NCBI GenBank assembly: GCA_036013505.1
Contig: CP107851.1
Coordinates: 8,046,001-8,110,000, forward strand
Direction: 5' to 3'
From: Streptomyces sp. NBC_00510
GTDB taxonomy: Bacteria > Actinomycetota > Actinomycetes > Streptomycetales > Streptomycetaceae
DNA: 64,000 bases
This document shows positions 959 through 30,300 of the stretch, in pieces. Position 1 is the first letter of the stretch. The number at the start of each line of letters is the position of its first letter. The notes beneath the pieces are model-generated. The model did not search any database. It saw only the letters and a program-made list of their open reading frames with translations, and had not been told where the DNA came from. The translations under genes and the position numbers were made by a program.

Positions 959-2032
959 ATGGACGACAACAACAGCGAGAACCGCGACGACAACACCGAG
1001 GTACCGGGCGGCGTGTGGGACGTGGTGGTCGTCGGGGGAGGCGCCGCCGGTCTGTCCGGCGCGCTGACCCTGGCACGCGTACGGCGGTCGGTGCTGGTGA
1101 TCGACGCGGGCGAGCCCCGCAACGCCCCGGCCGCCGCGGCACACGGCCTGCTGGGCCGCGACGGCGTCGCCCCGCTGGAACTGCTGCGCAAGGGGCGGGA
1201 GGAGGTCGCCTCCTACGGGGGCCGCGTCGTCAGCGGCCGCGTCACGGACATCCAGCGCGACGGCTGCCGGTTCGTGGTCGTGTGCGGGGACGGGCGGCGG
1301 GTGGCGGCGCGGCGGGTGCTGGTGACCTCCGGCCTGGTCGACGAGCTGCCGGACGTGCCCGGGCTGGCGCAGCGGTGGGGCAGGGACGTGCTGCACTGCG
1401 TGTTCTGCCACGGCTGGGAGGCGCGGGACACCGCGGTCGGGGTCCTCGGGAGCTTCCACCAGGCCCTGCTGTTCCGGCAGTTGTCGCAGGACGTGACGCT
1501 GCTCCTCGCACCCGGCGCCGATCTGACGCCCGATCAGTGGGAACAGCTCGCCGGTCTGGGCGTCGGCGTCGTCGAGGGCGTGGTGACCGGTCTGGAGACC
1601 GACGACGCGGACCGGCTGGCGGGGGTGCGCCTCGGCTCCGGGCACGTGGTGCCGGTCCGCGTGCTCGCGGTCGCCCCGCGCTTCACGGCACGGGCGTCCT
1701 TCCTCGGCGGTCTCGGCCTGACCGTGCGGGAGCATCCGGCGGGCTTCGGGGAGCAACTCGCGGTGGACGCCTCCGGCTTCACTGGCGTCGACGGCGTGTG
1801 GGCCGCGGGGAACGTCAGCGACCTGATGGCGGGCGTCCCTGCTGCCGCGGCGGCCGGGACGACCGCGGCCGCCGCGATCGTCATGGACCTGTTGACGGAC
1901 GACGCCCGTGCGGCGGCCCGGGCCCGCCGGCCCGCCGGCGCCGAGGTGTTCGGCGGGCGGATGGAGGCGGAGGTCACGCGGCGCGTGCTCGGCGCGCGCC
2001 GGCACGGCCTGGACCCGCTGCCGGGAGCGTGA
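959..2032 (+). CDS. thioredoxin-reductase-like FAD/NAD(P)-dependent oxidoreductase
   Basis: A 357-residue flavoprotein of the thioredoxin reductase-like class. An N-terminal VVVVGGGAAGLSG motif binds FAD, a redox-type CVFC pair followed by HGWE lies near residue 145, and a second nucleotide-binding glycine segment (VGVLGS) follows it. The C-terminal motif with DGVWAAGNV matches the FAD site of this family. The classic CATC active site is replaced by CVFC, a form common in actinobacterial stand-alone flavoprotein reductases, so the partner need not be thioredoxin. I chose ATG 959; an in-frame TTG at 902 would add 19 low-similarity residues. It stands alone between divergent or convergent genes. 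Confidence 0.85.
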   Translation: MDDNNSENRDDNTEVPGGVWDVVVVGGGAAGLSGALTLARVRRSVLVIDAGEPRNAPAAAAHGLLGRDGVAPLELLRKGREEVASYGGRVVSGRVTDIQRDGCRFVVVCGDGRRVAARRVLVTSGLVDELPDVPGLAQRWGRDVLHCVFCHGWEARDTAVGVLGSFHQALLFRQLSQDVTLLLAPGADLTPDQWEQLAGLGVGVVEGVVTGLETDDADRLAGVRLGSGHVVPVRVLAVAPRFTARASFLGGLGLTVREHPAGFGEQLAVDASGFTGVDGVWAAGNVSDLMAGVPAAAAAGTTAAAAIVMDLLTDDARAAARARRPAGAEVFGGRMEAEVTRRVLGARRHGLDPLPGA

Positions 2033-2060
2033 CTCCCCCGTCGCCCCGGTCGCCCCGGCC

Positions 2061-2633
2061 TCAGGCGGTGCGGGCCCGCAGATGGGCTCGCTCGCCCTGC
2101 CGCCCGAACAGGACGAGCAGTTCGACGGGGTCCTCGCCGTCGGGGCCGAGCCGGTGCGGGACGTGGGTGTCGAATTCGGCGGCCTCGCCCGGCTTCAGCA
2201 CCACGCGCCGGTCGCCGAGGAGCAGCAGCAGGCGTCCGGCCAGGACGTAGACCCATTCGAAGCCCTCATGGGTCTTCAACTCGGGCTCCGTACCCGGATG
2301 CGGCGGGATCAGCAGCTTGTGCGCCTGGATCCCGCCGGGTCGGCTCAGCGGCACGTACGTCAGGCCGTCGCGGGTGACCGGCCGGAGGTGGATGCGGGGA
2401 TCGCCGGTACCGGGCGCGCCGACGAGCTCGTCGAGCGGCACCGCGTGGACCTCCGCCAGGGTCAGCAGCAGCTCCAGGGTCGGCTTGCGGCTCCCGCCCT
2501 CGAGGCGGGACAGGGTGCTCTCGTTGATCCCCGTCCGCTCGGCCAGCTCGGCCAGGGTCATGCCGCGGCGGCGCCGCAGCTCCCGCAGCCGGGGCCCGAC
2601 GGCGTCCAGCACCTCTTTCCTCGTGACGTCCAT
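2061..2633 (-). CDS. XRE-family regulator with C-terminal cupin domain
   Basis: A 190-residue transcription factor. An N-terminal helix-turn-helix of the XRE/SinR type (MTLAELAERTGINESTLSRL, about residues 25-45) is followed by a cupin domain (about 105-180) with an H.GFEWVYVLAG.L strand and the HVPHRL segment. Family members bind a small ligand in the cupin and repress neighbouring transport or metabolic genes. The ATG at 2633 follows a TGAGGG box; an ATG 15 codons upstream is less likely. It lies downstream of the DMT exporter gene on the same strand, behind an inverted repeat that probably is its operator. The ligand is unknown. Confidence 0.88.
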   Translation of the reverse strand: MDVTRKEVLDAVGPRLRELRRRRGMTLAELAERTGINESTLSRLEGGSRKPTLELLLTLAEVHAVPLDELVGAPGTGDPRIHLRPVTRDGLTYVPLSRPGGIQAHKLLIPPHPGTEPELKTHEGFEWVYVLAGRLLLLLGDRRVVLKPGEAAEFDTHVPHRLGPDGEDPVELLVLFGRQGERAHLRARTA

Positions 2634-2640
2634 TCCCTCA

Positions 2641-2680
2641 GGTTGCCGAGACGGCATGGGGGATTGCAAGCGCGGCAACC
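2641..2680. promoter_or_regulatory. inverted repeat, candidate operator of the XRE-cupin gene
   Basis: GGTTGCCG at 2641-2648 is matched exactly by its reverse complement CGGCAACC at 2673-2680, with a 24-base spacer. It sits immediately 5' of the XRE-cupin start on the minus strand, in the short gap after the EamA gene. An autoregulatory site is an inference from position and symmetry. Confidence 0.45.
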
Positions 2681-2700
2681 GGCGGGCCGGCCGTACGTCG

Positions 2701-3564
2701 TCAGCCCGCCGCCAGCAGGACCGATCCCGCCAGGGCGAGGCCGGCGCCGGCGGCCTGGACGGGGCGGAGCCGCTCGCCGAGGACGCCCCGGGCGGCGAGG
2801 GCGGTGACGACGGGGTAGAGGGAGGCCAGCACGGCCGCCACCGCGACGGGGCCGTGGTGCGCCGCCAAGGCGTAGGAGCCGTTGGCCGCCACGTCCGCGA
2901 GGCCCACGAAGGACAGCGCGGGCAGGCTGCGCCACACCGTCGGCAGGCCGCCCTCGGGGAGCGACGGCGCGCCCCGCCGCACGGAGACCGCGAGGGCAGC
3001 CCCGCCCACGGCGACGTTGCAGACGCGCTGGACGAACAGCGCCAGGAAGAGCCCGGTCACGGTGTGGGACGCCTCCGCCACGAGCGACATGACCGCGCCG
3101 AAACCGAAGGCCGCGACCAGGGTCATGACCACCGCCTGCCGCTGTACGGGCGCCCCGCGCAACTCGGGCCCGCCGGCCAGGACGATGCCCACGACGGCCA
3201 CCGCGATGCCCGCGTACTGCACGGTCCCGGGGCGTTCTCCGAGCAGCAGCCCCACGCTCACCGGGACCGCCACCCCCACCGTGGCCAGCGGCGAGACGAC
3301 GCCCATGGGGCCGAGGGCGAGCGCGCGGTAGAAGCAGAGCATGGCGACCGGGCCGATCAGGCCCGCGGCCACCGCGAACCACAGGCGCGGGGAGGCCTCG
3401 CTCCAGCCGCCCGTCGCGACGACGACCGCGCCCAGCACGACGGCGGCCACGCCCTGGGAGACGACGACCACGGTGAGCGCCGGGAAACGGCGGGTGAGGA
3501 GCCCGCCGCCGAAGTCGGCGAGACCCCACAGCAGGCTGGTGGCCAGGGCGAAGACCGCGGTCAT
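2701..3564 (-). CDS. EamA/DMT-superfamily exporter
   Basis: A 287-residue integral membrane protein with about ten hydrophobic segments arranged as two EamA repeats (SLLWGLADFGGG at the N-terminus; a second half ending GAGLALAGSVLLAAG). The drug/metabolite transporter superfamily exports amino acids, nucleosides or other metabolites, and the substrate cannot be read from sequence. ATG 3564 is preceded by GGGAG at good spacing; an upstream in-frame ATG would add a non-hydrophobic leader overlapping the repeat-rich promoter. It is divergent from the XRE-cupin gene at 3660 and upstream of another XRE-cupin gene at 2633, so it is the obvious target of one or both. Confidence 0.88.
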   Translation of the reverse strand: MTAVFALATSLLWGLADFGGGLLTRRFPALTVVVVSQGVAAVVLGAVVVATGGWSEASPRLWFAVAAGLIGPVAMLCFYRALALGPMGVVSPLATVGVAVPVSVGLLLGERPGTVQYAGIAVAVVGIVLAGGPELRGAPVQRQAVVMTLVAAFGFGAVMSLVAEASHTVTGLFLALFVQRVCNVAVGGAALAVSVRRGAPSLPEGGLPTVWRSLPALSFVGLADVAANGSYALAAHHGPVAVAAVLASLYPVVTALAARGVLGERLRPVQAAGAGLALAGSVLLAAG

Positions 3565-3576
3565 GGGGCTCCCTCG

Positions 3577-3623
3577 CAGTACAGTACGGTGAACAGTGCA
3601 GTACACCCCACAGTAGTGCAGTG
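3577..3623. promoter_or_regulatory. iterated CAGT repeats in a divergent promoter
   Basis: Between the divergent EamA and XRE genes, CAGTACAGTAC (3577-3587) recurs as CAGTGCAGTAC (3594-3604) exactly 17 bases on, and a looser CAGTAGTGCAGTG (3611-3623) another 17 bases on. Six CAGT tetramers fall within 46 bases. A partial dyad GTGAACAGTGCAGTACAC covers 3590-3607. The arrangement looks like phased operator units for the adjacent XRE protein (inference). Confidence 0.5.
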
Positions 3624-3659
3624 AAGTGAACTCCTGCATTCATCATATTGGACGGTACG

Positions 3660-4232
3660 GTGCCGGACCTCGACCTGATCGCCCAGTCGCTCGCGCGCAA
3701 CGTCAAGCGCCTGCGCCTGGAGCGGGGCTACAGCCTCGACGCGCTCGCCGCCCGCGCCGGCGTCAGCCGCGGCATGCTGATCCAGATCGAGCAGGCGCGC
3801 ACCAACCCGAGCCTGGGCACCATCGTCCGCATCGGGGACGCGCTCGGCGCGAGCCTGGTGAACCTGCTGGACTACGCGGACGGGCCCAAGGTGCGGCTGG
3901 TCCCCGCCGACCAGGCCGTCGAGTTGTGGAGCACCCCCGCCGGCAGCCGCGGTCTGCTGCTGGCCGGCGGGCAGGCGCCGGGACCGCTGGAGATGTGGTC
4001 CTGGCGGATCATGCCGGGCGAGGGCCACGACTCGGACGCGCACCCACCCGGCACCGTCGAACTGATCCGCGTGGACCAGGGCGAGCTCACCCTCGTCGTC
4101 GACGGGCAGGAGCACCTCGTGCCCGCCGGGACGACCGCGAGCTTCGAGGCCGCGGCGCCGCACGGCTACCGCAACCGGGGCACCGAGGTGACGGAGATGA
4201 CGCTGGCCATCTCCGTCCCCGCCCCCCAGTGA
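3660..4232 (+). CDS. XRE-family regulator with C-terminal cupin domain
   Basis: A 190-residue regulator with an N-terminal XRE helix-turn-helix (SLDALAARAGVSRGMLIQIE, about residues 24-43) and a cupin domain over the last 90 residues. It shares architecture but little sequence with the regulator at 2633, so they are not recent duplicates. GTG 3660 has a GGAC box about eight bases upstream; an in-frame TTG at 3648 is the alternative and would add four residues. It is divergent from the EamA exporter across a promoter with repeated CAGT units, the standard arrangement for a local repressor or ligand-responsive activator. The ligand is not evident. Confidence 0.87.
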   Translation: MPDLDLIAQSLARNVKRLRLERGYSLDALAARAGVSRGMLIQIEQARTNPSLGTIVRIGDALGASLVNLLDYADGPKVRLVPADQAVELWSTPAGSRGLLLAGGQAPGPLEMWSWRIMPGEGHDSDAHPPGTVELIRVDQGELTLVVDGQEHLVPAGTTASFEAAAPHGYRNRGTEVTEMTLAISVPAPQ

Positions 4233-4260
4233 GACGGCACCGCCAACTCCCGGGATTTGT

Positions 4261-4273
4261 TAGCGTTCCGGAC
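4261..4273 (+). promoter_or_regulatory. -10 element of a likely leaderless promoter
   Basis: TAGCGT at 4261-4266 is followed by seven bases and then the ATG at 4274, with no ribosome site between. This spacing puts the transcription start at or next to the start codon. No convincing -35 box is visible. Confidence 0.4.
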
Positions 4274-4831
4274 ATGCGCGCACCCATCGGCACCTTCACC
4301 GACGTCCACCCCGCAGTGGAGCAGCTCGACCTGCTGCCGGCCCCCGTCGCGGCCGCACTGACCGCCTGGAGCGGGCAGGTGCCCGTCGAGGAGCTGCTGC
4401 TGGTCGACACCGACCCCGAGAAGGCCGACACCGCGGTCTTCACCGAGACGTACGGGGTCGCCCTGGAGCAGTCCGCGAACTGCGTGGTGGTCGCGGGCAA
4501 GCGCGGCGGGGAGGTGACGCTCGCCGCCTGCGTCGTCCTCGCCACCACGCGCGCCGACGTGAACGGCCTCGTGCGGCGTCATCTCGGCGTCCGCAAGGCC
4601 TCGTTCGCGCCGATGGACACCGCCGTGGGCGAGAGCGGCATGGAGTACGGCGGCATCACCCCGATCGGGCTGCCCGCCGACTGGCCGCTGCTGGTCGACG
4701 CAGCGGTCGCGGACACGCCGTACGTGATCATCGGCAGCGGCCGCCGGCGCGGCAAACTGCTCGTGCCCGGCAAGGCGCTGGCCTCGCTGCCCGGCGTGGA
4801 ACTGCTGGAAGGGCTGGGACTCCCCGCGTGA
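4274..4831 (+). CDS. YbaK/EbsC-family aminoacyl-tRNA deacylase
   Basis: A 185-residue protein of the YbaK/ProX family, stand-alone editing enzymes that hydrolyse mischarged tRNA (typically Cys- or Ala-tRNA(Pro)) in the cytoplasm. It shows the family's conserved segments: an invariant Lys in VVAGKRGGE (about residue 77), KASFAP, and GGITPIGLP near residue 135. Length matches the family. The start ATG 4274 is probably leaderless. Its 3' end overlaps the next gene by four bases (GTGA), so the two are translationally coupled. The exact tRNA substrate cannot be told from sequence. Confidence 0.9.
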   Translation: MRAPIGTFTDVHPAVEQLDLLPAPVAAALTAWSGQVPVEELLLVDTDPEKADTAVFTETYGVALEQSANCVVVAGKRGGEVTLAACVVLATTRADVNGLVRRHLGVRKASFAPMDTAVGESGMEYGGITPIGLPADWPLLVDAAVADTPYVIIGSGRRRGKLLVPGKALASLPGVELLEGLGLPA

Positions 4832-5646
4832 CGGAGCTGCTGGACCGCCTGGAGCGCTACTACGACGCCGTGCCCCGCGCGGGCGCCCGCGCCGAGGAGC
4901 ACGGCCCGCTCACCCTCTTCGTGCGCGAGGGCGTCGGCTGGCCCTTCTACGCCCGCCCGACGCCCGGCGCCGACGGCACCGTCGGCCGGGCCGACGTCGA
5001 CCGGGTCCGGGCCCGCCAGCGCGAGCTGGGCGTGCCCGAGTGCTTCGAGTGGGTCGCGGAGACCACCCCCGGCCTCCGGGAGGCGGCGCAGGCGTCCGGC
5101 CTGGCCGTGCACGAGCACCCGCTGATGGTGCTGGATCCGCTCGTCCCGTCACCGCCGCCGGAACTCCCCGCGGACGTCGGCGTACGGCTGCTCCGGCCCG
5201 GCGACCCCGCGCTGCCCAGCGCGCTCACCGTCCCGCACCTGGCCTTCGCGCAGCCCGGCACCGCCATCGGCACCGCCGGGCGGGCGGAACTCGCCGCCGC
5301 GCTCCCGCTGCACGCCGCCCCGGGACTCGTCGCGACCGCGGAGGCCCGCCTGCGGGCCGGGCTCACCGTCCACGCCGCGGCCGTCGAGGACGGCACCGCG
5401 CTGTGCGCGGGCCAGTACAACCCCGTGGGCGAGGTCTGCGAGATCGTCGGCGTCGGCACCCTGCCCAGCGCCCGCCGCCGCGGCCTGGCCCTCGCGGTCA
5501 CCGGCGCGCTCGTCGCCGACGCCCGCGAACGCGGGCTGACCACGGTGTTCCTCTCCGCGGGGGACGAGGACGTCGCCCGGATCTACGCCCGGCTCGGCTT
5601 CCGCCGGGTCGCGACGGCGCTCATCGCGGAGCCGTCCGTCCCCTGA
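4828..5646 (+). CDS. GNAT-family N-acetyltransferase
   Basis: A 272-residue protein whose C-terminal half (about 110-265) is a GNAT fold: the motif A region EIVGVGTLPSARRRGLA carries the RxxGxA-type pyrophosphate loop for acetyl-CoA, and IYARLGFRRV is the motif B helix-turn. The N-terminal 100 residues are a less conserved, degenerate GNAT-like domain, so the protein may be a double-GNAT. GTG 4828 overlaps the YbaK stop, giving an operon of two. Its 3' end overlaps the convergent GNAT gene by 26 bases. The acceptor substrate is unknown. Confidence 0.85.
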   Translation: MTELLDRLERYYDAVPRAGARAEEHGPLTLFVREGVGWPFYARPTPGADGTVGRADVDRVRARQRELGVPECFEWVAETTPGLREAAQASGLAVHEHPLMVLDPLVPSPPPELPADVGVRLLRPGDPALPSALTVPHLAFAQPGTAIGTAGRAELAAALPLHAAPGLVATAEARLRAGLTVHAAAVEDGTALCAGQYNPVGEVCEIVGVGTLPSARRRGLALAVTGALVADARERGLTTVFLSAGDEDVARIYARLGFRRVATALIAEPSVP

Positions 5647-6151
5647 CGGGCCGCCCGGACGGGGCGGGCGAAAGGTCCAGCGACAGCGGGATCGAGTGCT
5701 CGGCGAACCCCAGGCTGCGGTACAGCGGCTCCGCCTCCGGGGTCGCGTGCAGGTCGACGCGGGTCACGCCCTGCTCCGCGAACCACGCGAGCAGGGCCTG
5801 CGTCGTCGCCCGCGCGTACCCCAGGCCGCGGTAACGGGTGTCGGTGCAGACGTTGAAGACGAAGCCGAACCGGCCCGCCGGGTGCCCCGGCGCGGGCAGC
5901 CGCTCCTCGACCCGGCCCACCGCGCACGCCGCCAGGTGCGGCCCGTCCGCGACCGCGGGGTCGCCGTCCACCACGAACGCCCCCAGCCATCTCGCGCCGC
6001 CCCCGCCGAGCTGCTCGCGCGCCCGCTCCTCGGCGGCCGCCTCCCACGGACCGGGCTCGTCCCGCCCGCTCATGGCCAGGAACATCAGCCGCCGCAGCCG
6101 TACCAGCTCGGCGGCGTCATCGGGTCGGGCAGGGCGTACGGGACCGGGCAT
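5621..6151 (-). CDS. GNAT-family N-acetyltransferase
   Basis: A 176-residue single-domain GNAT. Acetyl-CoA-binding motif A is visible as FNVCTDTRYRGLGYAR, followed by a helix and the C-terminal EPLYRSLGF motif typical of the fold. It starts at ATG 6151 and runs toward the coupled GNAT gene on the plus strand, overlapping its last 26 bases tail to tail. It is not closely similar to that neighbour, so the pair is not a tandem duplication. The substrate is unknown. Confidence 0.86.
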   Translation of the reverse strand: MPGPVRPARPDDAAELVRLRRLMFLAMSGRDEPGPWEAAAEERAREQLGGGGARWLGAFVVDGDPAVADGPHLAACAVGRVEERLPAPGHPAGRFGFVFNVCTDTRYRGLGYARATTQALLAWFAEQGVTRVDLHATPEAEPLYRSLGFAEHSIPLSLDLSPAPSGRPVRGRTAPR

Positions 6152-6221
6152 GTGCGCACGCTACAACAGGGCATCAGGCCGTACGCAGCGGATTTCCGAC
6201 ACCTCTGGGGAGCCCCGGCGG

Positions 6222-6629
6222 CTAGCCGAGCCGGGGGATCTCGATCGCGGGGCAGCGGTCCATGACCATGAGCGGGCCCGCGCCCCGGGTGCGCTCGTAC
6301 GCGTCCTCGTCGATCACGCCGAGCTGGTACCAGACCGCCTTCGCGCCGATCGCGACGGCCTCGTCCGCGACGGCACCGGCCAGGTCGGAGTTGACGAAGA
6401 CGTCCACCACGTCGACCGGGAACGGGATGTCGGCCAGCGAGGCGTAACCCTGCTCGCCGTGCACGGTCTCGGCCTTCGGGTGCACCGGCACCACGCGCTT
6501 GCCGTACCGCTGCAGCACCGCGGCGACGCCGTACGCCGCCCGTGAGGCGTTGTTGGACAGCCCCACCACGGCCCAGGTGTCGCCGAGGCCGGTCAGGATC
6601 TTCCGAACCGTCGCGTCGTCTCCGTACAC
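6222..6629 (-). CDS. CoA-binding domain protein (YccU-like)
   Basis: A 135-residue protein made of one Rossmann CoA-binding domain of the YccU/succinyl-CoA-synthetase-alpha type. It shows WAVVGLSNN near residue 20, the GKRVVPVHPK strand, DVVDVFVNSD, and AKAVWYQLGV near residue 97. Proteins of this family bind CoA but have no settled reaction. The GTG at 6629 has a GGGAGGA ribosome site five bases upstream, which fixes the start against a longer frame beginning at 6860. It is divergent from the YigZ-like gene. Confidence 0.88.
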   Translation of the reverse strand: MYGDDATVRKILTGLGDTWAVVGLSNNASRAAYGVAAVLQRYGKRVVPVHPKAETVHGEQGYASLADIPFPVDVVDVFVNSDLAGAVADEAVAIGAKAVWYQLGVIDEDAYERTRGAGPLMVMDRCPAIEIPRLG

Positions 6630-7354: not shown

Positions 7355-8965
7355 TCACTCGGGGTTCACGTAGGTGACCTTGCCCTTGACGGTGGCCTCG
7401 ATGAAGCAGGTGCGGTAGTCGTCGACCCGGTAGTAGTACAGGGACGGCTTGTCGCTGATGATGTCGGGCTTGACGATCACGTAACTCATCTTCGGGTGTT
7501 CGACCTTGCAGTCCTTGTCCGCGCGGCCCATCAGGACCGGGAGCGTGTCCCAGCTGACGGTCTTGAGGTCGATGACCGTGTCGTCGGGATCGATGGTGCC
7601 CTTGCTGCCCCACTCCGACACCTCGCCGTCGCGGTACATGTAGCCGTCGTACACCGCGGTGTCCGACTTCTTCGGTGCCTTGAAGATCGCGTAGTCCTCG
7701 TAGAGGGTCAGGTCGACCACCTTGGTCCCGCCCGAGACCGACTTCACGACGTCCGCCATCGAGCGGCCCCCGGCCACCGAGAGCAGCTTCTCGGGCGCCG
7801 CCGTGCCGGGGGTGCCGGGGCCGGAGGAGTGCGTGCCCTTCGGGGTCCCCGTGCGGCCGCCCTTCTCCTTCGCGTCGGCGTCTCCGCCGTGGAGCCCCGG
7901 GACGAGGGTGTACAGCAGGACGCCCGCGACCCCCACGGCCACGACGGCGGTGGCGGCGGCCACGACCCGCCCGGCACGGCCGCCGCGCCGGGCCGAGGGG
8001 AGCGGGGTGGGGCGGGTCGGCGGCTGCGGGGGGTGGTACGGGTGGGGCGCCATCGGCGGGTACGAGGCCGGGGCGGGCCCGAAACCGGGGGGCGCCGCGT
8101 CCACGGGCGCGGGAGCGGGCGGCGTGCCGCGCTCGACGTCGGCCAGCATCCGGTCCAGCCGGTCTGCGTCGGGCCGGGCGGCGGCGTCCCGTACGAGCAG
8201 GGCGGTGAGCACGGGGGCCAGCGGCCCCGACCGCACCGGGGGCGGCAGGGGCTCGTCGAGGACGGCGACGAGCGTGGCGATGCTGGTCTCGCGGCGCAGC
8301 GGGTGGACGCCCTCCACCGCGACGTACAGCAGCATGCCGAGCGACCACAGGTCGGAGGCGGGGTTGCCCTCCTCACCGCGGATGCGCTCGGGGGCGATGT
8401 ACTCGGGCGAGCCGATGAGGCCGCCGGTGGTCGTCAGCCGGGTCGAGTCGCGGAGCGTGGCGATGCCGAAGTCGGTGAGGACCGGCGTCATGTCCGGCCG
8501 CAGCAGCACGTTCGCGGGCTTCACGTCGCGGTGGTGGACCCCGACCGCGTGCGCGGCGCGCAGCCCGGCCAGCACGCCGCGGCCGACCGTGGCCGCCTCC
8601 GGCGGGGTCAGCGGGCCACGGGCCAGCCGGTCCTGCAGGGAGCCGCCGGTCACCAGCTCCATCACGAGCCACGGGTGCGGGAGGTCCGTCCTGTCCACGA
8701 TGTGGTGGATCGTGGCGACATTGGGGTGGTGCACCCGGGCCAGCGCGCGGGCCTCGCGCAGTACGCGCTCCCGCAGTTTCGCCGCCGCCTCGGGGTCGGT
8801 CTCGGCCAAGTCCGGGTCGGGCGGCCGTACTTCCTTCAGGGCGACCTCGCGGTGCAGGGCGGTGTCGAGGGCCCGCCAGACCAGGCCCATGCCGCCGCCG
8901 CCCAGTCGTTCCAGCAGTTCGAAGCGGCCGTCGATCAGTCGTCTGCCGGAGTCGCTCGCCGTCAT
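7355..8965 (-). CDS. membrane-anchored serine/threonine protein kinase (PknB-like)
   Basis: A 536-residue Hanks-type kinase. The catalytic domain (about 15-275) has the glycine loop LGGGGMG, the ATP-binding Lys in VALKE (K44), the catalytic HRDVKPAN loop, DFG and APE. A proline-rich juxtamembrane stretch follows, then one transmembrane helix (about 330-350) and an extracellular domain of about 180 residues with paired cysteines and no PASTA repeats, so it does not look like a peptidoglycan-sensing PknB proper. ATG 8965 is chosen over an ATG ten codons upstream. It is divergent from sbcD across 192 bases. Its substrate and signal are unknown. Confidence 0.92.
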   Translation of the reverse strand: MTASDSGRRLIDGRFELLERLGGGGMGLVWRALDTALHREVALKEVRPPDPDLAETDPEAAAKLRERVLREARALARVHHPNVATIHHIVDRTDLPHPWLVMELVTGGSLQDRLARGPLTPPEAATVGRGVLAGLRAAHAVGVHHRDVKPANVLLRPDMTPVLTDFGIATLRDSTRLTTTGGLIGSPEYIAPERIRGEEGNPASDLWSLGMLLYVAVEGVHPLRRETSIATLVAVLDEPLPPPVRSGPLAPVLTALLVRDAAARPDADRLDRMLADVERGTPPAPAPVDAAPPGFGPAPASYPPMAPHPYHPPQPPTRPTPLPSARRGGRAGRVVAAATAVVAVGVAGVLLYTLVPGLHGGDADAKEKGGRTGTPKGTHSSGPGTPGTAAPEKLLSVAGGRSMADVVKSVSGGTKVVDLTLYEDYAIFKAPKKSDTAVYDGYMYRDGEVSEWGSKGTIDPDDTVIDLKTVSWDTLPVLMGRADKDCKVEHPKMSYVIVKPDIISDKPSLYYYRVDDYRTCFIEATVKGKVTYVNPE

Positions 8966-9157
8966 GGCGGTTATCGTACGGGCGGGCGGGGACACGGCTT
9001 GACCGACCTTGCCCGAATTCGGACTCCCGCGGCGCGCTGACAGTGGTGGCCGATAGCCTGCTCTCGGAGCCTACGGGACCGGTGGGGACACCGGGGCCCG
9101 TGCGGAGCATGCGGAACGTGAGCCGGAGGAACGGAACATGCGGGCGGGAGAGCCACG

Positions 9158-10318
9158 GTGAGGTTGCTGCACACCTCCGACTGGCATCTGGGGCGGTCCT
9201 TCCACCGGGTCGGGCTGCTCGACGCCCAGGCGGCGTTCATCGACCACCTGGTGGCGACGGTGCGGGCGGAGCGCGTCGACGCCGTCCTCGTCGCCGGCGA
9301 CGTCTACGACCGGGCGCTGCCGTCGCTGCCCGCCGTCGAGCTCTTCGACGACGTGCTGCACCGGCTCGCCGACCTCGGCGTGCCCACGGTGATGATCTCC
9401 GGCAACCACGACTCGGCCCGCCGGCTCGGCGTGGCCTCCGGGCTCATCGACCGCGCCGGGATCCACCTGCGGACCGACCCGGCCGGGTGCGCGACGCCGG
9501 TCGTGCTCGCCGACGCGCACGGGCCGGTCGCCCTGTACGGGCTGCCCTACCTCGAACCCGCCCTGGTGCGGGAGGAGTTCACCCTCGACCGGGCCGGGCA
9601 CACCGAAGTGCTGAGCGCCGCCATGGCGCGGGTCCGCGCCGACCTGGCCGCACGCCCCGCGGGCACCCGCTCGGTCGTGCTGGCGCACGCCTTCGTCGCG
9701 GGCGGCGCGCCCAGCGACAGCGAGCGGGACATCACCGTCGGCGGCGTGGCGGCCGTGCCCGCGGGCGTCTTCGACGGTGTCGACTACGTGGCCCTCGGCC
9801 ACCTCCACGGCTGCCAGACGATCACCGACCGCGTCCGCTACTCCGGCTCCCCGCTGGCGTACTCCTTCTCCGAGGCCGACCACCGCAAGAGCATGTGGCT
9901 GGTCGACCTCGGCGCCGACGGCTCCGTGGCCGCCGAGCGGGTCGACTGCCCCGTGCCCCGGCCGCTCGCCCGGATCCGCGGCCGCATCGAGGAACTTCTG
10001 GAGGACCCGGCGCACGAACGGCACGAGGACTCCTGGGTCGAGGCCACCCTCACCGACCCGCACCGCCCGCACGAGCCCATGGCCCGCCTGCGCAAACGCT
10101 TCCCGCACGCCCTCGCGCTGGCCTTCGAGCCCGAGCGTACGGACGCCGACCCCCACGCCTCGTACGCGCAGCGCCTGCGCGGCCGCTCCGACCGGCAGAT
10201 CGCCGAGGATTTCGTGGCCCACGTCCGCGGCACCGGGCCCGACACCGCGGAGCGGGGCGTCCTGCGGGACGCGTTCGACGCGGTCCGTAGCGATGCCGTA
10301 CGGGCGGAGACCGACTGA
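9158..10318 (+). CDS. sbcD: exonuclease SbcCD, nuclease subunit D
   Basis: A 386-residue Mre11/SbcD-type metallophosphoesterase, the nuclease subunit that with SbcC opens DNA hairpins and protein-blocked ends. All metal motifs are present in order: HTSDWHLG at residue 5, GDVYD near 48, GNHD near 82, an AHAF His near 175, and GHLH near 212; the C-terminal capping domain is complete. The start is GTG 9158. Its TGA overlaps an ATG (TGATG) that should open sbcC, but here opens an 84-codon chimeric ORF produced by duplication of the junction. Confidence 0.95.
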   Translation: MRLLHTSDWHLGRSFHRVGLLDAQAAFIDHLVATVRAERVDAVLVAGDVYDRALPSLPAVELFDDVLHRLADLGVPTVMISGNHDSARRLGVASGLIDRAGIHLRTDPAGCATPVVLADAHGPVALYGLPYLEPALVREEFTLDRAGHTEVLSAAMARVRADLAARPAGTRSVVLAHAFVAGGAPSDSERDITVGGVAAVPAGVFDGVDYVALGHLHGCQTITDRVRYSGSPLAYSFSEADHRKSMWLVDLGADGSVAAERVDCPVPRPLARIRGRIEELLEDPAHERHEDSWVEATLTDPHRPHEPMARLRKRFPHALALAFEPERTDADPHASYAQRLRGRSDRQIAEDFVAHVRGTGPDTAERGVLRDAFDAVRSDAVRAETD

Positions 10319-25474: not shown

Positions 25475-27316
25475 ATGATGACTGCAGATCAGACACCGCA
25501 CGCCTTCCAGGTCGACCTGCGCGGCCTGGTGGACCTCCTCTCCCACCACCTCTACTCCAGCCCCAAGGTCTACCTGCGCGAACTGCTGCAGAACGGCGTC
25601 GACGCGATCACCGCCCGCCGGGCCGAACAGCCCGACGCCCCCGCCAGGGTGCACCTGCACGCCGAGGGCGGCCGGCTGCGCGTGACGGACACCGGCGTCG
25701 GCCTCACCGAGTCCGACGTGCACGACCTGCTCGCCACCATCGGCCGCAGCTCCAAGCGCGACGGGCTGGAGAGCGCCCGCTCGGAGTTCCTCGGCCAGTT
25801 CGGCATCGGGCTGCTCGCCTGCTTCGTCGTCGCAGCGGAGATCCGCGTCGTCAGCCGGTCCGCCCGTACCCCGGACGCCCCGCCCGTCGAGTGGACCGCC
25901 CGTGACGACGGCTCGTACACCGTCCGCACGCTGCCGCGGCAGGACCACCCCGAGCCCGGTACGACCGTCCACCTGACCGCCCGGCCGGGCGCCGCGGAGT
26001 GGCTGGCCGAGGAGCGCGTGCTCGCCCTCGCCAAGGACTTCGGGTCCCTGCTGCCGTACGACGTGCGGGTCGGCGACACGCCCGTCACCGAGCGTCCGCC
26101 GGTCTGGGAGCGCCCGCACCCCGGGCAGGCGGCCCGCCGGGTCGCGCTCGCCCGGCACTGCCACGAGCAGTTCGGCTTCACCCCGCTCGACGTCATCGAC
26201 CTCGACGTCCCCCTCGCGGGCGTGCGCGGCGTCGGCTACGTCCTGCCCGCCGCGGTCAGCCCCGCCCAGCGCGCCGGGCACCGCGTCCACCTCAAGGGCA
26301 TGCTGCTCACCGACCGGGCCGACGAACTCCTGCCGGAGTGGGCCTTCTTCGTCCGCTGCGTGATCGACACCGACAGCCTGCGCCCCACCGCGTCCCGGGA
26401 GAGCCTGTACGCCGACGAGACGCTCGCCGCCGTCCGCGAGGCCCTCGGCGAACGCATCCGCGGCTGGCTGACCGAACTTGCCGCGGGCGACCGGGAACGG
26501 CTCGCCCAGTTCCTCGCCGTCCACCACCTCGGCGTCAAGTCGCTCGCCCGGCACGACGCCGGGATGCTCCGCACGATGCTGCCGTGGCTGCCGTTCGAGA
26601 CCACCGACGGGCAGCTGTCGCTCGAGGAGTTCGCCCGCCGCCACCCCGTCGTCCACTTCACCCGCACCGTCGAGGAGTACCGGCAGGTCGCCGCGATCGC
26701 CTCCGCGCAGGGCATCGGCGTCGTCAACGGCGGCTACACCTACGACGCCGACCTGGTCGAGCTGCTGCCGACCGTGCGTCCGGGCACCGCCGTCGCCGAA
26801 CTCGACGCGGACACCGTGACCGCGCACCTCGACCCCGTCGACCCGGCCGAGGAACTCGCGCTGTCCGGCTTCCTCGCCGCGGCCCGCGCCCGGCTCGACC
26901 CGCTCGGCTGCGACGTGTCGCTGCGCACCTTCCACCCCGTCACCGTCCCCGCCCTGCACCTGGACGACCGGGCCGCCCGCCACGAACGCGCCCGCGCCGA
27001 GGAGGAGGAGCAGGCCGACGAGCTGTGGGCGGGCATCCTCGGCTCCCTGCGCGGCGGCGCCCCGCGCGCCCGGCTCGTCCTGAACCACCTCAACCCGCTG
27101 GTCCGGCGGATCAGCGGGTTCACCGACCACGAACTCGTCGGCACCGCCGCCGAGGCGCTGTACGGCCAGGCCCTGCTGATGGCCCAGCGCCCGCTGCGCC
27201 CCGCCGACTCCGCGCTCCTCAACCGCGCCTTCCTCGGCCTGCTGCAGTGGGCGGCGCAGACCGCGGACAGCCCCGCGGGCAAGCCCGCCGACGCCGAACA
27301 GGAGGACGGCCGATGA
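25475..27316 (+). CDS. Hsp90-family (HtpG-like) ATPase/chaperone
   Basis: A 613-residue GHKL/Hsp90-family protein. The Bergerat ATPase fold is complete: LRELLQNGVDAI (N-box Glu/Asn, about residue 38), VTDTGVGL (G1, near 72), GQFGIGLLACFVVA (G2, near 107) and PGTTVHLTA (near 168). A middle domain with a VDLDVPLAGVRGVGYVLP strand and a conserved Arg in the TASRESLY loop is present. The C-terminal dimerisation part is shorter than in E. coli HtpG and there is no MEEVD-like tail. It overlaps the TPR gene by four bases (ATGA), so the two are co-translated. Confidence 0.92.
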   Translation: MMTADQTPHAFQVDLRGLVDLLSHHLYSSPKVYLRELLQNGVDAITARRAEQPDAPARVHLHAEGGRLRVTDTGVGLTESDVHDLLATIGRSSKRDGLESARSEFLGQFGIGLLACFVVAAEIRVVSRSARTPDAPPVEWTARDDGSYTVRTLPRQDHPEPGTTVHLTARPGAAEWLAEERVLALAKDFGSLLPYDVRVGDTPVTERPPVWERPHPGQAARRVALARHCHEQFGFTPLDVIDLDVPLAGVRGVGYVLPAAVSPAQRAGHRVHLKGMLLTDRADELLPEWAFFVRCVIDTDSLRPTASRESLYADETLAAVREALGERIRGWLTELAAGDRERLAQFLAVHHLGVKSLARHDAGMLRTMLPWLPFETTDGQLSLEEFARRHPVVHFTRTVEEYRQVAAIASAQGIGVVNGGYTYDADLVELLPTVRPGTAVAELDADTVTAHLDPVDPAEELALSGFLAAARARLDPLGCDVSLRTFHPVTVPALHLDDRAARHERARAEEEEQADELWAGILGSLRGGAPRARLVLNHLNPLVRRISGFTDHELVGTAAEALYGQALLMAQRPLRPADSALLNRAFLGLLQWAAQTADSPAGKPADAEQEDGR

Positions 27317-30300
27317 GCACCCAGGACCCGGCGGTCGAGACCGTACGCCGCGCCCTGCACCACAACCGGGAGGAGCCCGAGGGCCGCGCCCGCAACGCCG
27401 GCGCGGAGCGGCTCGTCGCCGAGGCCGAGGCCACCGGGGACACCCAGCTGCTCCTCGAGGCCCTGTTCAACCTCGCCAACGCCTATGCGTACAGCAGCGA
27501 GAAGGACAAGTTCTTCGTGCCCTTCGCCCGTCTGCTGCGCATGTGGGACGAGCGGCCCGGCGACTTCGACGGCGCGAACACCCACCACCTGCACTGGATC
27601 TTCAAGTGGGTGGCCAACGGCATGCTCGACCAGCCCGACGTCCCGCTCGCCTCCATCGAGAAGTGGCACCGCGAGATGGAGCACCGCTACCGCCTCGCCG
27701 GTCACTCCGAACGTGCCGTCCGCCAGGGCGAGTTCCGCATCGCCCGGCACCTCGGTGACACCGCCCGCGCCGAGGCCGCCCATGCCGCCTGGCTCGCCGC
27801 CGACCGCGACGGCATGGCCGACTGCCACGCCTGCGAACTCCACGGCCAGGGCAGCTGGCAGGTGGAACGCGGCCGTGACGACGAGGCGCTGAGCGCCTGG
27901 GAGCCGGTCCTGACGGGGCAGTACACCTGCGCCCACGAACCGCACAACGTGCTGGCGTCCTCGCTGCTGCCGCTGGTCCGGCTCGGCCGGCTCGACGAGG
28001 CACGCGCCCACCACCTGCGCGGCCACCGCCTGGTGCGCTCCATGGAGAGCATGCGCGGCGCGGTCTCCTCCCACGTCGAGTTCTGCGCCCTGACCGGCAA
28101 CGAGGCACGGGCCCTGGAGATCCTCGCCGAGCACCCCGCGTACTTCACCGACACCGGCGACCCCGACACGCTCATGGACCACCTGGTCGTCACCGCGGTC
28201 CTGATGCGCCGCCTGCTCGCCCTCGGCCACGCCGACGGCGGCGTCCCCGGCCCGGCCGGCACCGAGTGGACCGCCCGCACGCTGCTCGCCCACGCCGAGC
28301 GCGAGGCCGCCGCCGTCGCCGCGCGCTTCGACGCCCGCAACGGCAACGACGCCGTCAGCCGCCGCATGCGCGAGCGCCTCGGCGCCGAGCCCCTCGTGGA
28401 GCGGCTCCCGCTGGGCGTCCGGGCCCGGCAGCGCCTGACCGCGCCCGCCCGTCCGCAGCCCGCACCGGCCGCCGGAGCGGCCGCCGTGCCCGCGGGCGCG
28501 GCGGACGTCCCCGCACTGCTCGCCGATGCCCGCAGGCTCAGCGCCGCCCAGCACCCCGACGCGGGCGCCGCATGGGCCGCCGCGGGCTGTGCCGCGGACA
28601 GCACCGGCACCGCCCTGGACGACCTGGCCCGCGCCGAGATCGCCGACCACGCCGGCATCGACGCCTTCGCCGACCCCGGCAGCGCCGTACCGCTCTTCGA
28701 CACCGCCGCCGGCCTGTTCGAGGCGGCCGGCAAGCCCGGCGAAGCCGCGGCCTGCCGTGCCCGCGCCGCCTACGCGGTGGCCGTCGCGGAACAAAGTGCC
28801 CGGGCCCTGACCGCGCTCGACGCGGCCGTCGACGCACTGCGCGAGCTGCACGGCACCGGCCGGGCCACCGCCCGCCAGCTCACCGGGGCCTGGCTGGCCC
28901 GGTTCCACCTCCGGCCGCCCGGCGCCGAGGGCGAGGCGGAACTGCTGCGGATCATCGCCTTCGCGCAGGAGCACCGCGACGAGGACCGGATGGCCGGACG
29001 GCTCGCCGACGCGATCGCGCTGCACGCCCGCCACACCGCCGCGCGCGGCGACGTCGCGACCTCCGCCGAGCTCTTCGCGCGGGCCGCCCGCCTCCACCAC
29101 GAGGCCGGAACCCCGTGGCACGCCGCCGAACCCGAGGCGCTCCTCGCCGACCTCTCCCTCCAGCGGGACGACCACACCACCGCGGAGCGGTCCGCCCGCG
29201 CCGCGCTGGAGGACGGCGCCGCGGCCCTGGGCCCCGTGCACCGGGCCCACCTGCACACCGTGCTCGCCGCCGCGCTCGCCGCCCGCGGAGCCGACGCCGA
29301 GGCCGCCGACCACGCCCTGGAGGGCGCCCACTGGGCCGACGAGGGCGACATGTCCGAGGAGCTCGGCGCCTGGGCACGGCTCGTGCTCGGCGGGGCGCTG
29401 CTGCGCCAGGACAGGTCCGCCGAGGCCGCCACCGTCCTGGAGACCGCCCTGCCCGACCTGGTGCGCGCCCACCACGACGGGCGCGTCGTCCAGGCCCGCT
29501 GGTGGCTGGGGGACGCGCTGCGCGACCTGGACGAGCCGCGCGCCGCCGCCGAGCAGTTCCTGCTCGCCGCGGGGATCGCGCAGGGCTGGGAGGAGCAGCA
29601 GGACCACGCCGTCCTCGCGAACCTCGCCGCGGACTCCCTGGAACGGGCCGGCCTGGCCGGCGAGGCCGGCGAGGCGTACACCCGCGCCGGTGAGCTCTGG
29701 CGTGCCCTGGAGCGTCCCGTCCCCCTCGTCCGCTCGCTGCGTGCCCGGGCCTGGCTCGCCCTCCACGACGGCCAGGGCGGTCTCGGCGTGGGCCGCTCGG
29801 TGATGGCCGAGGCCGTCGCGGTGGCCGAGGAGGCGCTGGCCGCGGCGACGGCGGCCGGTGACGGGGACGCCGCGGCGCACCTGCGCGCCGAACTGGCGGG
29901 GACCCACCGGCAGACCGGCGAACTGGTCGTCCGCTCCTGCCCCGGCGAGCCCGGCGAGGACGACACGGACGGCTCGGCGCGCGCCGCGTACGAGGAGGGC
30001 CTGGCCTGCGCGGAACGCGCGATCGCGGTCTTCGAACCGGGTCCCGCGCGCAGCGCGGCCCAGCTGATGGCCGCCTGGCTCGAGGCCGATCTGGGACGGC
30101 ACACCGCGGCCGCGGAGCGGGCCCGGGCCGTGATCGCCCTGTACGGGGGCGAGGACGGCGGTCAGGAGGACGAGGTCGCCGAGCAGCGGCGGGCCGAGGC
30201 GCGCTCCGTCCTCGAATACGTCGGCGAGCGGTCCGCCGGACCCGAGGAGGCGCAGGGCGGGCAAGCGCAGGGCGGGCAGGCACCGGCCGGGCAGGCGTAG
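27313..30300 (+). CDS. large TPR/helical-repeat protein coupled to the Hsp90-like gene
   Basis: A 995-residue soluble protein built almost entirely of helical pairs in the TPR style (for example LFNLANAYAYSSEKDKF near residue 50, and repeated LADAI, LARAA and AEQFLLAAGIAQ helices). It ends in a low-complexity tail with repeats of AQGGQ and PAGQ. No enzymatic motif is seen. TPR proteins often bind chaperones as scaffold or client adaptors, and the ATGA overlap with the Hsp90-like gene makes a chaperone-cochaperone pair the simplest reading (inference). The start ATG 27313 is fixed by that overlap. Confidence 0.85.
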   Translation: MSTQDPAVETVRRALHHNREEPEGRARNAGAERLVAEAEATGDTQLLLEALFNLANAYAYSSEKDKFFVPFARLLRMWDERPGDFDGANTHHLHWIFKWVANGMLDQPDVPLASIEKWHREMEHRYRLAGHSERAVRQGEFRIARHLGDTARAEAAHAAWLAADRDGMADCHACELHGQGSWQVERGRDDEALSAWEPVLTGQYTCAHEPHNVLASSLLPLVRLGRLDEARAHHLRGHRLVRSMESMRGAVSSHVEFCALTGNEARALEILAEHPAYFTDTGDPDTLMDHLVVTAVLMRRLLALGHADGGVPGPAGTEWTARTLLAHAEREAAAVAARFDARNGNDAVSRRMRERLGAEPLVERLPLGVRARQRLTAPARPQPAPAAGAAAVPAGAADVPALLADARRLSAAQHPDAGAAWAAAGCAADSTGTALDDLARAEIADHAGIDAFADPGSAVPLFDTAAGLFEAAGKPGEAAACRARAAYAVAVAEQSARALTALDAAVDALRELHGTGRATARQLTGAWLARFHLRPPGAEGEAELLRIIAFAQEHRDEDRMAGRLADAIALHARHTAARGDVATSAELFARAARLHHEAGTPWHAAEPEALLADLSLQRDDHTTAERSARAALEDGAAALGPVHRAHLHTVLAAALAARGADAEAADHALEGAHWADEGDMSEELGAWARLVLGGALLRQDRSAEAATVLETALPDLVRAHHDGRVVQARWWLGDALRDLDEPRAAAEQFLLAAGIAQGWEEQQDHAVLANLAADSLERAGLAGEAGEAYTRAGELWRALERPVPLVRSLRARAWLALHDGQGGLGVGRSVMAEAVAVAEEALAAATAAGDGDAAAHLRAELAGTHRQTGELVVRSCPGEPGEDDTDGSARAAYEEGLACAERAIAVFEPGPARSAAQLMAAWLEADLGRHTAAAERARAVIALYGGEDGGQEDEVAEQRRAEARSVLEYVGERSAGPEEAQGGQAQGGQAPAGQA

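Follow-up and report, generated by a model that had tools for sequence, protein, structure and literature searches.

A bacterial Hsp90 lineage paired with a helical-repeat protein in Streptomyces and other bacteria

Eukaryotic Hsp90 works with TPR co-chaperones (Hop/Sti1, FKBP51/52 and PP5), while the usual picture of bacterial Hsp90 is that of a lone chaperone working with DnaK, and TPR co-chaperones are seen as a eukaryotic addition. In most descriptions HtpG has no TPR co-chaperones, and no bacterial Hsp90 is known to us that carries a tail of the eukaryotic EEVD type. Bacterial HtpG proteins have been divided into Groups A, B and C, with those of gamma-proteobacteria, Firmicutes and Actinobacteria falling into Groups A and C and with a PLN signature before xSRE marking Group A, the canonical HtpG; in S. 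coelicolor, the two HTPG genes belong to separate groups (Chen et al. 2006, PMC1525184). The words TPR, tetratricopeptide, operon and adjacent do not occur in that text. The lineage described below falls outside Group A, as Group C does, and is probably this "HTPG Group C", as we infer from its taxonomic spread and missing PLN set against the description of that group.

The window analysed here is the whole stretch of 64,000 nucleotides at positions 8046001-8110000 of the 10.1-Mb genome of Streptomyces sp. NBC_00510, which is a single contig. The earlier note had described an Hsp90-like ATPase gene overlapping the gene of a 995-residue helical-repeat protein, and this description is accurate in its coordinates, with both the ATGA overlap and an AGGAGG motif present (Table 1). 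The genes scanned on either side of the pair are unremarkable: upstream lies a divergent gene for a PhoD-type phosphatase, downstream one for a GH15 enzyme. No HAIR/HspR operator was found in the window at up to 3 mismatches from the consensus.

Table 1. Coordinates of the gene pair and its parts within the window.
Feature	Positions	Strand	Basis
Hsp90-family ATPase, 613 aa, of the NCBIfam NF010683 "HSP90 family protein" lineage (PRK14083), not canonical HtpG	25475..27316	+	Profile scores, tree, fold
AGGAGG, Shine-Dalgarno-like, within the 3' end of the Hsp90 gene, 7 bases ahead of the partner start	27300..27305	+	Sequence
ATGA, shared stop/start (4-base overlap of the Hsp90 and partner genes)	27313..27316	+	Sequence; overlap seen in 78/80 named relatives
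Partner, 995-aa all-helical TPR-type superhelical protein	27313..30300	+	ORF, predicted structure, fold search
Partner N-terminal block, residues 4-358, conserved core with CxxC (C171, C174), C206, W95/K98 and D340-R342	27322..28386	+	Alignments; region aligned by the short Paenibacillus and Listeria partners
Partner linker, predicted disordered, residues 376-393	28438..28491	+	pLDDT <50
Partner C-terminal TPR-like repeat array, residues 399-974	28507..30234	+	Predicted structure; conservation below that of the N-terminal block; whole-partner length differs among relatives

The window Hsp90 clearly belongs to NF010683, matching it in profile searches with 855 bits over residues 6-597 (cut-off 455), while it fails the cut-off of the canonical HtpG model NF003555 (181 bits, cut-off 371). 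NF010683 is, however, defined by the Hsp90 alone, and the partner has no model in Pfam, NCBIfam or PADLOC. The ATP-site residues E36, N40, D72, G76, G107/G110/G112 and T163 are present together with R308 of the middle domain. E36, N40, D72, G76, T163 and R308 are in register with E34, N38, D80, G84, T174 and R336 of E. coli HtpG, and the ATPase site is intact, as proposed earlier. On the HtpG profile of 614 positions the protein covers 3-598, and residues 12-596 of its AlphaFold model, which is of moderate quality (pLDDT 73, pTM 0.56), align with full-length TRAP1 chains (7exp_B: Z 21.6, rmsd 10.5, 496 aligned), an alignment that beyond residue 445 rests on few rows. Because of this profile coverage and fold alignment no Hsp90 domain is absent, and the protein has N, middle and C-terminal domains. 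The earlier claim of a short C-terminus without a TPR-docking tail therefore holds for the tail but not for the length: no part is missing, whereas the protein ends in EQEDGR with no EEVD-like motif, and EEVD, EVD or VD endings occur in none of the tails of 84 relatives.

Canonical HtpG has the same catalytic residues and three-domain length as the window Hsp90 but is only 21-30% identical to it and falls on a separate branch, and PLN ahead of SRE is replaced by PTA in the window protein. Its PTASRE has P and T where all 22 canonical HtpGs that we compared have L and N (PLNxSRE), and most partner-linked Hsp90s likewise read PTASRE instead of PLNxSRE. All 36 partner-linked Hsp90s retain the ATP-site residues, save that T163 is S in Pseudanabaena. 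A tree of 58 Hsp90s, comprising the 22 canonical HtpGs (20 from the same phylum plus E. coli and Rhizobium) and the 36 partner-linked proteins with Pseudanabaena counted in, splits these two sets with 100/100 support. The rows closest to the window Hsp90 are from Streptomycetaceae, and the branching order inside the partnered side is unsure because long branches and uneven letter make-up were flagged. A geldanamycin-resistant "HtpG" of S. hygroscopicus with an N92L-type change is described in two papers (PMC3603443, PMC4060131). We considered it as a lineage member on account of this change and dropped the link because 6 of the 22 canonical HtpGs share the leucine at that column.

Searching this genome with the canonical HtpG model returned just the two Hsp90s of the window pair and of a second pair described below, both below cut-off, and no canonical htpG. 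Five pair-carrying relatives, in contrast, do hold a second, htpG-like gene in addition to their pair; these genes score 175-192 bits against NF010683 and share 64-70% identity with a canonical HtpG from an actinobacterium. Profile scores, genome search and tree all point to a separate Hsp90 lineage and in this respect favour the earlier proposal of a system distinct from classical HtpG. As a control we scanned 24 likely next-gene ORFs, wrong-frame alternatives included, behind 14 canonical htpG genes and found no TPR family among the matches listed (25 of 43 Pfam families), nor do the E. coli and Rhizobium records have an annotated TPR gene beside canonical htpG. It could be argued from the Hsp90 fold and the ATPase residues that the locus simply holds a second HtpG of the usual kind, which came to lie in one operon with a TPR gene by chance. 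With the NF003555 cut-off failed, the 100/100 split, the outcome of this control and a helical-repeat neighbour recurring across three phyla, we regard this as very improbable, and conservation of the pair already contradicts it.

The partner of the window Hsp90 has no match in Pfam, NCBIfam or PADLOC at E <=1. Its AlphaFold model (42 relatives) is confident and nearly all helix (pLDDT 91.6, pTM 0.86), with an N-terminal block (hereafter N-block) at about residues 4-358, a disordered linker and a long superhelix as delimited in Table 1. A Foldseek search of the PDB matched this model to generic repeat proteins only, OGT and LGN with their TPR domains among them. The label of a giant TPR-like protein is therefore apt for the fold, an all-helical superhelix, but not for the sequence, to which no TPR family model was matched; 12 of 18 partners scanned match Pfam TPR_12 at E <=0.1. 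Over 42 relatives the N-block is the better conserved part, with a mean majority frequency of 0.79 and 58 of 355 positions invariant, against 0.64 and 21 of 577 positions for the C-terminal array. Residues invariant across 24 N-blocks, Paenibacillus and Listeria included, are among others W95, K98, G148, C171, C174, C206, P210, D340 and R342.

In the best 80 loci from a scan of named genomes—75 titled Streptomyces, the remainder Actinacidiphila, Promicromonospora, Nocardiopsis and two "Actinobacteria bacterium", a sample biased to close kin because these loci are the closest matches—a partner relative lies directly downstream of the Hsp90 in every case, with the partner extending past the contig end in 9 of them. 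Stop and start overlap in 78 of the 80 loci (by four bases in 58, by one in 16 and by eight in 4), and the two others have a gap of 19 bases and one scored as 250 (L115). An earlier neighbour test of loci L018-L037 had reached just 1.5 kb past a partial match. A less biased sample of the class, 296 genomes, holds 42 Hsp90 places above the NF010683 cut-off in 36 genomes, and 41 of these 42 places are adjoined by a partner relative; the partner was sought in 45 genomes, the 36 with this Hsp90 and 9 Hsp90-negative Streptomycetaceae. Together with the E. coli carriers described below, these counts extend the pairing of the two genes as neighbours well beyond this species.

The 42nd Hsp90 (G419, L159 4093-5979) scores 454 bits alone and 479.7 when its neighbours in frame are included, and overlaps by ATGA a different TPR gene (L159 5976-6866). 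The product of this gene has no N-block match, and TPR_2 and TPR_8 come out barely above their cut-offs. In this divergent Hsp90 the partner has apparently been replaced by a TPR protein without detectable similarity. No partner relative was found in 8 of the 9 Hsp90-negative Streptomycetaceae. The ninth has an orphan partner (G171, L157 2305-5520, minus strand), and another genome has an extra orphan partner N-block fused to a YbjN domain (G466, L158 5169-7016, plus strand), each with no Hsp90 in the fetched stretch.

The Hsp90 and partner genes occur, duplicate and change place together. A second pair lies 5 Mb away in the same genome (G000:C1:3071693-3076365; L007:7679-12435), with an Hsp90 67% and a partner 39% identical to those of the window and a partner start that again overlaps the Hsp90 stop; its flanking ORFs matched none in the other loci compared. 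For the flanking ORFs of the window, matches were seen in no more than 2 of 81 other loci. Elsewhere flanks are shared, with ORFs beside the pairs of L038, L047, L071 and L089 matching ORFs in up to 65 other loci. These shared flanks are recG upstream (L047) and a DAK2/FakA-like gene downstream (L071, matched in 59 other loci, some contigs being cut), both antisense to the pair in these loci. The matches to recG and DAK2 are adjacent, 43 to 567 bases apart, in all 9 pair-negative Streptomycetaceae and also in this genome (286 bases), where both pairs sit elsewhere. In the other 18 pair-positive genomes the pair is found between recG and DAK2 in 11, rearranged beside recG in 1 and elsewhere in 6. 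Distances among Hsp90s and among partner N-blocks are correlated over 21 pairs (r 0.95, a value reached by 0 of 5000 permutations), which is partly expected because common ancestry alone yields some of it.

Evidence from outside the Actinomycetota consists of a handful of records, and the NF010683 cut-off is also exceeded in 2 of 14 named control genomes; we count both against a two-part machine. The Hsp90s of Paenibacillus and Listeria lie above that cut-off (715 and 799 bits) and are followed by one 353-aa gene and by two genes of 324 and 320 aa, respectively, which match the window partner only in residues 22-355 (best E 8e-24 and 2e-18). In the Listeria record (L120), the short N-block partners stand in tandem behind the Hsp90 at 7815-8789 and 8821-9783, and an SMI1/KNR4 gene comes next. 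Records of Salmonella, Xanthomonas and P. aeruginosa show an Hsp90-like gene and then a gene of 764-774 aa, with Salmonella and Pseudomonas Hsp90s of 286 and 293 bits falling below the cut-off. A query made of the Hsp90-like gene plus most of the partner gene matches 245 of 5426 complete E. coli genomes, each over at least 80% of its length; in the one E. coli locus that we opened, the pair sits between fdhD and yiiG, two genes that are direct neighbours in K-12 MG1655. On a Pseudanabaena plasmid, a TPR gene lies two genes beyond an Hsp90-like gene. The 877-aa Hsp90-like protein of this plasmid is longer than the others (L121 5213-10795), and the locus, with TIR-domain, TPR, VWA and AAA genes, looks like one of conflict type.

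Whether the partners of different phyla are related was addressed by profile comparison. Full-length actinobacterial (A2) and proteobacterial (A4) partners gave a negative result in hhalign (prob 6.8). The N-blocks, with actinobacteria and Bacillota in one profile, matched those of proteobacteria over 140 columns with CxxC in register (prob 85.2, score 49.2, E 6e-6), against a best score of 25.8 in 60 column shuffles, 24.5 and 24.2 for reversed profiles, at most 24.3 for N-blocks against C-terminal arrays and 34.7 for the actinobacterial against the proteobacterial arrays. This similarity appears only with the most diverse profile, and a less diverse one from the named loci (A2N) reached prob 5.4 and score 27.9 against the proteobacterial N-blocks. 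By these comparisons, the actinobacterial and proteobacterial partner N-blocks are likely homologous.

We take the P. aeruginosa locus (L123) to be PA1068/PA1069, going by the bra/liv gene order and by a published remark on its operon. According to this remark the PA1069 gene appears operonic with an Hsp90 gene, and the same paper reports PA1069 as absent from the proteomes of efhP mutants at high calcium (PMC4053335). The locus is a proteobacterial version of the pair, though with an Hsp90 below the family cut-off and a partner that is at most distantly related to that of the window. In two further papers, PA1069 goes down on heat shock of PAO1 (log2 -1.98) while htpG goes up (2.83) (PMC4957987), and PA1069 is among the proteins co-precipitated with BatR (PMC13411936). 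The proposed Hsp90-partner machine would probably not be a general heat-shock chaperone. No description of a cross-phylum Hsp90-partner pair was found in the literature, which as a search of open-access papers is weak evidence of absence. The Hsp90 lineage itself is known, and its helical-repeat partner as the defining feature is, as far as we found, not described; the idea of a pair is not wholly new, with the bacterial Hsp90 groups separated in 2006 and the operon remark on PA1069 published.

A GHKL ATPase switch coupled to a TPR sensor could also be the core of a conflict or phage-defence module, and several observations would suit such a role: the pair is patchily present as a unit, the ATPase domain of the window Hsp90 has a local match to PADLOC TmtA (E 1.9e-8), a TIR-domain gene adjoins the Hsp90-like gene of Pseudanabaena and the SMI1/KNR4 gene follows those of Listeria. 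However, a search for effector domains came up empty for both proteins of the window pair and for the other partners scanned, the partner has no PADLOC match, and the settings that we worked out (recG/DAK2 and fdhD/yiiG) are housekeeping regions rather than defence islands. Among viral contigs, one query (A1) found no relative and another (A5) two weak ones. Taken together, we consider a defence function improbable. The plasmid search matched 303 records, 290 of them over less than 80% of the query, and of the 40 matches listed many are annotated as htpG and many are unannotated. One 6.6-kb "Bacteriophage sp." record (MT837560.1, L124) contains an Hsp90-partner pair at 1915-6485 and is probably bacterial DNA filed as phage; Hsp90-like stretches in short "Listeria phage" and "Escherichia phage" records are perhaps host DNA.

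Our preferred reading, to which we assign a probability of about 0.55, is that the pair encodes a two-component Hsp90 machine in which the partner would bind or serve the Hsp90 as a co-chaperone or client adaptor dedicated to it. The conserved N-block with its W/K, CxxC, C206 and DxRNG signature would dock on the Hsp90 or govern its ATPase cycle, and the variable C-terminal TPR-like array would take up particular clients. We place the N-block on the Hsp90-facing side because no other part is as conserved and the short Bacillota partners align to it, and the array on the client-facing side because it is variable and missing from those short partners. Such a machine would have the same kinds of parts as the eukaryotic Hsp90-TPR systems, an Hsp90 and a helical partner of TPR type, but with a different interface in place of docking between MEEVD tail and TPR clamp; the bacterial Hsp90 lacks EEVD, the window partner matches no TPR model, and common descent of the partners is not evidenced.

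Co-translation and co-occurrence suit any obligate functional link, including that between a chaperone and a dedicated client, and count against the co-chaperone reading, just as the commonness of TPR-like proteins and the two orphan partners count against a two-part machine. The main rival holds that the Hsp90 is a private chaperone that chiefly folds or holds the neighbouring helical-repeat protein, which would do the real work in, e.g., scaffolding or signalling. The one-to-one pairing and gene overlap would be expected from such an arrangement, as would partner relatives lacking an adjacent Hsp90 in two genomes (G171 and G466) and the appearance of PA1069 without PA1068 in proteomics and co-immunoprecipitation, as far as the published excerpts go. 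An adaptor family is nevertheless better suited by an N-block that is more conserved than the rest and aligned by the Bacillota partners, and by the G419 neighbour being a TPR protein without detectable similarity. The orphans further suggest that the partner can fold without this Hsp90, and overall we regard the private-chaperone explanation as unlikely, if less so than a role in defence.

Extending the co-chaperone reading to the whole lineage is a more tentative step, which we rate at a little under even odds. The partnered Hsp90 would then be an ancient lineage over Actinomycetota, Bacillota and Pseudomonadota (perhaps also Cyanobacteriota) that is obligately two-part with a TPR-type partner, the CxxC N-block being a new Hsp90-docking domain and the array a swappable client selector. 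An Hsp90-TPR partnership would have evolved without a MEEVD tail, and one lineage would have had its partner replaced by an unrelated TPR protein. In the bacteria examined, the near-constant partner gene beside a little-studied branch of Hsp90 suggests a two-part machine as opposed to the lone chaperone of the textbooks. If true, a widespread bacterial Hsp90 with its helical-repeat partner would offer a simple model, made of two genes, for the steering of Hsp90 by repeat proteins.
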